Positions 25,509 to 28,310 of a stretch of DNA of 63,644 bases are shown in pieces. Origin of the DNA: Mycobacteriales bacterium (GTDB taxonomy: Bacteria > Actinomycetota > Actinomycetes > JAFAQI01). The translations under genes were made by a program, and so were the position numbers. Position 1 is the stretch's first letter; each line of letters begins with the position of its first letter. The notes under the pieces are model-generated. The model saw only the letters and a program-made list of their open reading frames with translations, made no database searches and had not been told where the DNA came from. The stretch is from positions 1 through 63,644 of the forward strand of contig DATJSI010000104.1 in NCBI GenBank assembly GCA_035504215.1, given 5' to 3'.

Positions 25509-27989
25509 TCAGGCAGCCACGACGTTGACCAGCCGCGGCGCGCGGACGATCACCGTCCGCACCTCACGGCCGGCCAGGGCGCGCGCCACGCCGGGCGCGG
25601 CCAGGGCGAGCTCGCGCAACGCATCCTCAGAGACATCCGCCGCGACGGTCAGCCGGTCGCGGACCTTGCCGTCGACCTGGACCACACACGTGACCTCGTC
25701 CTCGACCAAGAGCGTCTCGTCGTACCCCGGCCACTCGGCGAAGACCACCGAAGGAGCGCGGCCGAGCAGCGACCAGGCCTCCTCCGCGGTGAACGGCGCG
25801 AAGATCGACAGCATCCGCGCCAGCGCCTCGGCCGCCTCGCGGATCGCGGCGGCGCGCTCGGGCGTCGACAGCCCGCCACCATCGATTGCCTTGCGGACCA
25901 GCGAGGTCAGCTCCATCAACCGCGCGATCGTGACGTTGAACCGCTTGGTCCGCGCATGCTCGGTCGCGTCCGCGATCAGCTTGTGCACCGCGCGCCGGAT
26001 CTCCGCATCGCCCGTCGTCGGGTCCGAGTCCATCGCGGCCGACCCGACGTCGCTGGCCACGCGCCAGACCCGGGCCAGCCACTTCACCGCGCCGGTGGGC
26101 GACACATCGGCCCAGTCGATGTCGTCCTCGGGCGGCCCGGCGAACAGCATGGTCACGCGCACTGCGTCCGGACCGTACTTGGCCAGCTCTTCCTGCAGGT
26201 TGACCAGGTTGCCCTTCGACTTCGACATCGCCGCGCCGTCCATGATCACCTGGCCTTGATTGGTCAGGCGGGTGAACGGTTCGGTGAACCCGACCATGCC
26301 CATGTCGTACAGGGCCTTGGTCAGGAACCGGGAGTACAGCAGATGCAGGATCGCGTGCTCGACGCCGCCGATGTACTCGTCGACCGGTAACCAGTCGGCG
26401 GTGCGCTGCGGATCGAACGCGGCCTGGGAGTCGTCCACCGACGGGTAGCGCAGGTAATACCACGCCGAGTCGACGAACGTGTCCATCGTGTCGGTGTCAC
26501 GCGAGGCGGGGCCGCCGCACGACGGGCAGTCGACCTTCACCCACTCGGTCGCCGAGGACAGGGGTGACTCGCCGCCGGTGGGGCGCAGCTCGTAGCCCTC
26601 CGTCGGCAACAGCACCGGCAGCTGGTCGTCCGGCACCGGCAGCTCGCCGCAGGACGGGCAGTGCACGATCGGGATCGGGCAGCCCCAGTAGCGCTGCCGT
26701 GACAGCAGCCAGTCGCGCAACCGGTAGGTCACCGCCGGCTCGCCCTCACCGGCCGACTCCAGGTCCGCCGCGATCGCGGCGATCGCGTCGTCCTTGGTCA
26801 TCCCGTCGTAACGCCCGCTGTTCACCAGCACGCCGTCACCCGTGGTTGCGACGCCCGTCTCGGCCGGGTCCGGCTCGCCGGTGTCCACGACCATCCGCAC
26901 CGGCAGGTCGAAGACCCGCGCGAAGTCCAGGTCGCGCTGGTCGTGCGCCGGGACCGCCATGATCGCCCCGGTGCCGTAGTCAGCCAGGACGTAGTCCGCC
27001 GCCCACACCGCGATCCGCTCGCCGTTGACCGGGTTGATCACGACCCGGCCCAGCGGCACGCCGGTCTTGTCACGTCCCTCGCTCAGCCGCTCGATCTCCG
27101 TCGAGTGCCGCACCTGCTCCAGGTACGACGTGAACGCCTCGCGCTGCTCGTCCGCACACAGCTCACTCGCCAGCTCCGAGTCGGCGGCGACGACAAAGAA
27201 GGTCGCGCCGAACAACGTGTCGGGCCGGGTCGTGAAGACCCGGACCGGCTGGTCGCGACCCTCGATCCGGAAGTCGACGTAGGCGCCGGTCGAGCGGCCG
27301 ATCCAATTGCGTTGCATCGTCAGCACCGGACCGGGCCAGACGCCGTCCAGCCCCGCCATGTCGGCCAGCAACCGCTCGGCGTACTCGGTGATCTTGAAGA
27401 ACCACTGGGTCAGGTTGCGTTTCGTGACCTCGGTGCCGCAGCGCTCGCAGCGGCCGGCGATCACCTGCTCGTTCGCCAGGACGGTCAGGTCCTTCGGGCA
27501 CCAGTTGACCGGTGCCGATTTCCGGTAGGCCAGCCCACGCTCGTACAACCGCAGGAACAGCCACTGGGTCCAGCGGTAGTACTCCGGGTCAGAGGTGTGC
27601 AGCCGGGTCCGCCAGTCGAAGGACATGCCCATCCGCCGGTAGCCCTCGGACTGGACCTCGATGTTGGCGTAGGTCCAGTCCCGGGGGTCCAGCCCACGGG
27701 CCAGTGCGGCGTTCTCGGCCGGCAGCCCGAAGGAGTCCCAGCCGATCGGGTGCAGCACGTCGTGACCGGTAGCGCGGGCGAACCGCGCGACCGCATCGCC
27801 GATGCTGAACGCCTCGGCATGACCCATGTGCAGGTCGCCGCTCGGGTAGCTGAACATGTCGACGACGTACGCCCGCGGGCGGGATCCGTCGTCGACCGGC
27901 TCGAAGACGTGCAGGTCGTCCCAGACCGGCAGCCACTTGTCCACGACGCCCAGCGGGTCGTATCCCGACTCGGGTGCGGCCTCACTCAT
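25509..27989 (-). CDS. leuS: Leucyl-tRNA synthetase
   Basis: A class I aminoacyl-tRNA synthetase of 826 residues, bacterial LeuRS size. The HIGH-type motif is HMGH in [12 protein letters not shown]; the CP1 editing domain follows ([31 protein letters not shown]); the KMSKS-type motif reads AAMSKSKGN; zinc cysteines occur in CPSCGELP and CPSCGGPA. The start ATGAGTGAG gives [15 protein letters not shown] leader with a Leu-rich peptide, a hairpin and an intrinsic terminator lies immediately upstream, indicating attenuation in response to leucyl-tRNA charging. Confidence 0.97.
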
Positions 27990-28042: not shown

Positions 28043-28068
28043 AGAAAAGGCCCTCACGCAGGAGGGCC
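28043..28068 (-). terminator. Intrinsic terminator in the leuS leader (attenuator)
   Basis: Read on the minus strand: GGCCCTC, loop CTGCGT, GAGGGCC, then TTTTCT. This is a perfect 7-bp GC-rich stem with a T-run, located 54 bp upstream of the leuS ATG and downstream of a Leu-Leu-Leu leader peptide. Its position inside the leuS leader rather than after a gene argues for attenuation. Confidence 0.85.
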
Positions 28069-28102
28069 GCCGCGCTGACGTGGTGCGTAGTCAGCGCGGC
28101 CC
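28069..28102 (-). promoter_or_regulatory. Leader hairpin / candidate antiterminator of the leuS attenuator
   Basis: On the minus strand GCCGCGCTGAC pairs perfectly with GTCAGCGCGGC around a 10-nt loop (28100-28069), directly abutting the terminator stem. The leader-peptide stop codon TGA lies inside its first arm. An alternative pairing, GGGCCGC (28102-28096) with GCGGCCC (28070-28064), would sequester the 5' arm of the terminator. Exactly which fold antiterminates is inferred, not shown. Confidence 0.7.
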
Positions 28103-28132
28103 GGGAAGGAGCAAGCAACGGGTCGCAGACAC
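28091..28132 (-). CDS. leuS leader peptide (Leu-Leu-Leu)
   Basis: A 13-residue reading frame, MSATRCLLLPGPR with a GTG start, containing three consecutive Leu codons of different kinds (TTG CTC CTT). Its stop codon falls in the first arm of the leader hairpin. No Shine-Dalgarno is present; a -10-like TACGAT (28144-28139) ends 6 bp before the GTG, consistent with a leaderless transcript. Stalling at Leu codons when charged tRNA-Leu is scarce would change folding of the downstream hairpins and permit leuS transcription. The inference rests on position, composition and the adjoining terminator. Confidence 0.72.
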   Translation of the reverse strand: MSATRCLLLPGPR

Positions 28133-28310
28133 GAGAAGATCGTATCGCAACCGGCGCATCACGCCCGCCGATAACCCGACGGCCGTCAACCAAAGCGATC
28201 CCCGCAACGTCTCAATAACGAATGAACCGAGCGAGGGTGTCAACCGTCCGAGAAGGCGGAAGACCTCACATAGAGTGCAAGCGCGGGGGATGTTGATGGC
28301 TGGAGACCGG

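Follow-up and report, generated by a model that had tools for sequence, protein, structure and literature searches.

The locus examined here raises the question of whether the leucyl-tRNA synthetase gene leuS in the window (the whole stretch of 63,644 nucleotides that was analysed) is controlled through a translated leader and, if so, how the ribosome on that leader is coupled to transcription termination.

Anatomy of the leuS leader

The region upstream of leuS on the minus strand was found to contain a compact series of elements between positions 28144 and 28045 (Table 1). The initial annotation had reported a -10-like box, a 13-codon frame with three consecutive Leu codons, a perfect 11-bp hairpin (here P1) that includes the leader stop codon, and a perfect intrinsic terminator with a T-run, and reading of the sequence recovered each of these at the expected position. 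The GTG of the frame, leuL, is exactly 6 nt past the -10 box, and the transcription start is predicted to lie at this GTG. A search for sigma-70 promoters found none with a good -35 element at the leuS leader, so the promoter call depends on the -10 box together with the conservation of its spacing. The terminator was the only one detected in 1.2 kb of sequence, where 0.3 would be expected, and the fold of the sequence between 28140 and the start of leuS lies 4.1 standard deviations below those of its shuffles (z = -4.1).

Table 1. Features of the leuS leader and its gene in the window (peptides here and in the text are given up to their stop codons)
Feature	Coordinates	Strand	Details	Basis
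-10 promoter box	28139..28144	-	TACGAT	sequence
leuL leader peptide frame	28091..28132	-	VSATRCLLLPGPR; GTG start at 28132; stop TGA 28093-28091, inside the P1 5' arm	sequence; orthologues with a Leu run at 54 leuS loci
Control codons	28106..28114	-	Leu-Leu-Leu, TTG CTC CTT	codon choice across 50 leaders
P1 hairpin (probable antiterminator)	28069..28100	-	11 perfect pairs; 5' arm GCCGCGCTGAC 28100-28090, loop 28089-28080, 3' arm GTCAGCGCGGC 28079-28069	covariation
Intrinsic terminator	28045..28068	-	GGCCCTC-CTGCGT-GAGGGCC + TTTT; 7 bp, arms 28068-28062 and 28055-28049, then a short T-run, TTTTCTGT	terminator search; helix 2 covariation
Possible extended antiterminator	28064..28102	-	GGGCC 28102-28098 : GGCCC 28068-28064	feature of window sequence
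leuS, leucine--tRNA ligase	25509..27989	-	predicted controlled gene; ATG at 27989	TIGR00396, 939.8 bits vs cut-off 548.4

On sequence grounds the region would be classed as a transcription attenuator, as a frame that is rich in Leu codons and predicted to be translated precedes leuS, and a terminator lies between the frame and the gene. Among 50 leaders, the last codon of the Leu run was CTT in 40 and CTC in 10 and was never CTG, and the middle codon was CTC or CTT in 42. In the leuS gene of the window, 58 of the 70 Leu codons are CTG, three are CTC and none is CTT, and the leader control codons are thus those otherwise rare in this gene. The use of rare control codons is a known habit of attenuators, and decoding of CTC and CTT presumably falls to the tRNA whose anticodon is GAG.

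Whether attenuation of leuS had been described in this group was left in doubt by the initial annotation. For S. avermitilis and S. coelicolor, comparative work published in 2005 had already predicted classical attenuators of leuS (PMC1262725), so this type of control is not new. When compared by text, the Streptomyces attenuators and the window leader share the gene, a leader peptide with Leu codons, antiterminator and terminator hairpins, and the direction of control. However, the earlier prediction concerned two genomes from another family of the class, and leaderless translation was unmentioned. Reannotation of the S. lividans TK24 genome by RNA-seq later assigned to leuS a leaderless leader peptide, LeuL2 (MRAVRLLLSEPR), with a mapped transcription start and a hairpin and uridines following it (PMC8079986). 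The window peptide (VSATRCLLLPGPR) likewise has three Leu residues, followed by a hairpin and a U-run, and its predicted leaderless start, Leu triplet, hairpin and terminator upstream of leuS would place it in the LeuL2 type. The two differ in that LeuL2 was mapped by RNA-seq whereas the start in the window, at a GTG codon, is a prediction.

Distribution and covariation of the leader

A strict pattern (TANNNT, a gap of 6-7 nt, ATG or GTG, 6-19 codons including Leu-Leu, and a terminator soon after) matched one site in the window, the leuS leader, and no site in 60 first-order Markov random windows (3.8 Mb). All of the 47 matches in 571 kb of related loci were in leuS leaders. By a looser criterion, leuS was preceded by the device in 54 of the 107 loci compared from actinobacteria, a set from which three duplicates were removed and in which a few loci have upstream sequence too short to judge. 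The gap between the TANNNT box and the start codon was 6 nt in 48 of these loci and 7 nt in the other six, in a search that allowed 3 to 8 nt. As the box always lies 6-7 nt before the start, leaderless translation of the peptide, proposed from the window alone, is well supported. The nearest named relatives are metagenome-assembled genomes labelled Frankiaceae. In the window's own family, the device was present in seven genomes with a readable leader (its own included), and it was absent from two members belonging to one genus (G004 and G008).

A covariance model built from 28 leaders, including that of the window, which it matches at E 6e-18, was used to search the class. Matches were found in 173 of 297 genomes at E <= 0.01 and in 111 at E < 1e-8, some of these genomes having been used in building the model. 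The figure of 173 is an upper one for leuS, as some of the weaker matches are leaders of other genes. One match (G181) is a leader upstream of leuS that encodes MRAVRLLLSEPR, identical to LeuL2 of S. lividans. Attenuation of leuS, already known in Streptomyces, is therefore far more widespread than described, and what was a prediction in two genomes now extends across the class as a regulatory element that is supported by covariation and described by a covariance model absent from Rfam. Another genome, G209, carries two strong leuS-type leaders (G209:C30:34677-34771 and G209:C5:472926-473023), and may have two copies of leuS.

Alignment of the leuS leaders of relatives, which had been suggested as a check, revealed both the covarying stems and the conserved Leu run. 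In the 28 leaders, 10 of the 14 base pairs of P1 and the terminator had changed on both sides, and 98.2% of cells were paired, vs 92.7% when shuffled (0/500 shuffles) and 41-54% in slid controls. For P1 alone, 7 of 9 modelled pairs had changed on both sides and 98.8% of cells were paired. On this evidence, both hairpins, P1 and that of the terminator, appear to have been maintained by selection.

The position of P1 relative to the Leu codons was also conserved. Of 50 leaders, 37 have P1 starting 4-5 nt past the last codon of the Leu run; in Actinomadura-type leaders the distance is 8 nt, the base of P1 having been called shorter there by the script. The stop codon, on the other hand, ranges in the 50 leaders from 2 nt before the start of P1 to 23 nt after it, into the loop. 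This provides a sharp, testable rule, namely a fixed distance from the rare Leu codons to P1 and a free position for the stop codon. When the ribosome footprint was taken as 12 nt from the A-site codon, a ribosome on the first Leu codon left a mean of 12.4 P1 pairs in the 50 leaders, as compared with 8.2 for one on the last Leu codon and 1.7 for one at the stop codon. As P1 in this model can form when the ribosome stalls but not once the peptide is finished, it is likely to be the part that reports the position of the ribosome.

Control of termination and alternative readings

Conservation of the Leu run, the leaderless spacing, the terminator and P1 extends through relatives to the level of the class and is accompanied by covariation. 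The proposal of ribosome-mediated attenuation of leuS was thus borne out, and the leader is very probably an attenuator of transcription that senses charged leucyl-tRNA. Judging from the conserved spacing between the -10 box and the start codon, transcription would begin at the leader GTG and the ribosome would load at the extreme 5' end. When leucyl-tRNA is scarce, the ribosome would stall on TTG-CTC-CTT with its front edge just short of P1, so that P1 could form behind the polymerase, the adjoining terminator would remain unused and leuS would be transcribed. When leucyl-tRNA is plentiful, the ribosome would reach the stop codon in the 5' arm of P1, P1 would be blocked, the terminator would form and transcription would end. 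A synthetase gene should be expressed when the ribosome stalls, and P1 is therefore expected to function as an antiterminator. The same ribosome logic has been set out for ilvB1 of M. tuberculosis, another gene with another codon set, in which the antiterminator is left free by a ribosome stalled at codons for branched-chain amino acids and is masked by one that has reached the stop codon (PMC13236596). In S. coelicolor, changing candidate control codons of the ilvB leader is cited in PMC1262725 as having been without effect, and a conserved actinobacterial leader thus need not respond as expected.

How P1 would prevent termination was approached through a search for pairings that exclude the terminator. 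The initial annotation had included an alternative pairing that masks a terminator arm. Such a pairing, GGGCC:GGCCC, does exist in the window, where it is modelled to capture about 3 nt of the terminator arm with a ribosome on the first Leu codon, but comparative support for it was absent. As a general antiterminator this extended P1 was rejected, as 60% of cells were paired, the same as in shuffles, and no double changes were seen. Three other candidates were also rejected. Two of them had been noticed by eye, a pairing between the Leu codons (CUCCUU) and the terminator 3' arm (GAGGGG) and a contact between the loops of P1 and the terminator (UACGCA:UGCGUG in the window). A fixed-offset helix scan, which is weak here as loop lengths vary, gave no clear conserved signal, and the loop contact was missing from most relatives on inspection. 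For the third, a 2:3 hairpin like that of E. coli, there was no room for a loop. No conserved pairing of P1 or the leader with a terminator arm was found in the comparative tests. P1 is thus conserved and, in the model, dependent on the ribosome, whereas a pairing incompatible with the terminator occurs in the window but is not conserved. In equilibrium folding the terminator formed in every modelled ribosome state. With no conserved pairing and the terminator favoured throughout, either antitermination depends on kinetics or its explanation is incomplete, and this step of the scheme is inferred.

The C. glutamicum ilvBNC leader offers a parallel for this step, as its antiterminator directly adjoins the terminator and the two hairpins compete at their bases (PMC11857589). 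Its control codons include CUU, as in leuS leaders, but the gene and the codon set are different and the trinucleotide overlap at its boundary is not conserved in leuS leaders. By analogy with the scheme proposed for ilvBNC, P1 would most likely prevent termination by competition at its junction with the terminator.

A stop codon within a hairpin ahead of a terminator is also the textbook layout of a three-part switch like that of E. coli trp, in which P1 would serve as hairpin 1:2 and its 3' arm, once released, would pair with the terminator as the antiterminator. However, in nearly all loci only 0-3 nt separate the P1 3' arm from the terminator, leaving no 2:3 loop, no such pairing is conserved, and, as the Leu codons precede P1, a stalled ribosome would leave P1 free. 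This arrangement is considered unlikely.

Slightly less probable still is an added layer of translational control, in which CUUGCUCCUU from the Leu-codon region would pair with the purine stretch before the leuS start and hide it unless a ribosome is on the leader. Pairing of the Leu-codon stretch with this purine-rich region appears in the minimum-energy fold of the whole leader (28140-27987, minus strand), but codon rarity offers another explanation for the use of CTC CTT.

Attenuation in response to leucyl-tRNA was further weighed against a constitutive promoter-proximal terminator accompanied by an incidental short frame, with no sensing of leucine. Evidence from a single sequence would permit this, and the terminator remained stable whichever state was modelled; yet the Leu run, the codon choice, the start spacing and the P1 register are conserved across the class and match the amino acid of the gene, and the equivalent leaders of cimA carry Ile runs, making a constitutive terminator very improbable. 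T-boxes control ileS in the phylum Actinobacteria (PMC1262725), but a T-box or other leader that binds tRNA or a ligand can here be virtually dismissed, as Rfam covariance models (T-box and others) gave no match to the leader at the gathering cut-off or at E <= 1, and the peptide, P1 and the terminator account for the whole leader.

Related leaders of cimA, ilvB and leuA

The leuS covariance model also matched leaders of the branched-chain genes ilvB, leuA and cimA. The citramalate synthase gene cimA, identified by TIGR00977, was found to be preceded by short frames with Ile runs, for example VQRTAIIIP, MTIHRIIIARRVG and VQSALIIT. In the genome of the window, MSTITIICERVG is encoded before cimA and is followed by a similar P1 and terminator (G000:C146:5520-5608, minus strand). 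A separate model built from cimA leaders had a match immediately before cimA in 69 of the 91 cimA loci of the class. Most cimA leaders are leaderless by their -10 spacing, and they often use ATT, which is likely to be a rare Ile codon. The work on leuS leads in this way to a putative Ile-sensing counterpart before cimA. No description of an Ile-run cimA leader was found in a literature search of incomplete coverage. It is possible, but rather doubtful, that the leuS, cimA and ilvB leaders share one leaderless design, in which a hairpin at a fixed distance past rare codons and against the terminator is itself the switch, with no conserved competing pairing, and that the Ile-sensing cimA version is undescribed.

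An ilvB attenuator of a known kind is also present in the genome of the window, with the leader VRRILVLVST, a hairpin and a terminator (G000:C37:10723-10801, minus strand; L148). The LEU element of actinobacterial leuA (PMC1262725) resembles the leuS leader in having a leader peptide with a Leu run, but it forms a pseudoknot, has no obvious terminator and is a different device. In one genome, leuA, encoding 2-isopropylmalate synthase, is preceded by the leader MKHLLLIESARH located 6-7 nt past a -10 box (L154; G062:C93:9064-9151, minus strand), and this leader, unlike the described LEU pseudoknot, has a terminator.
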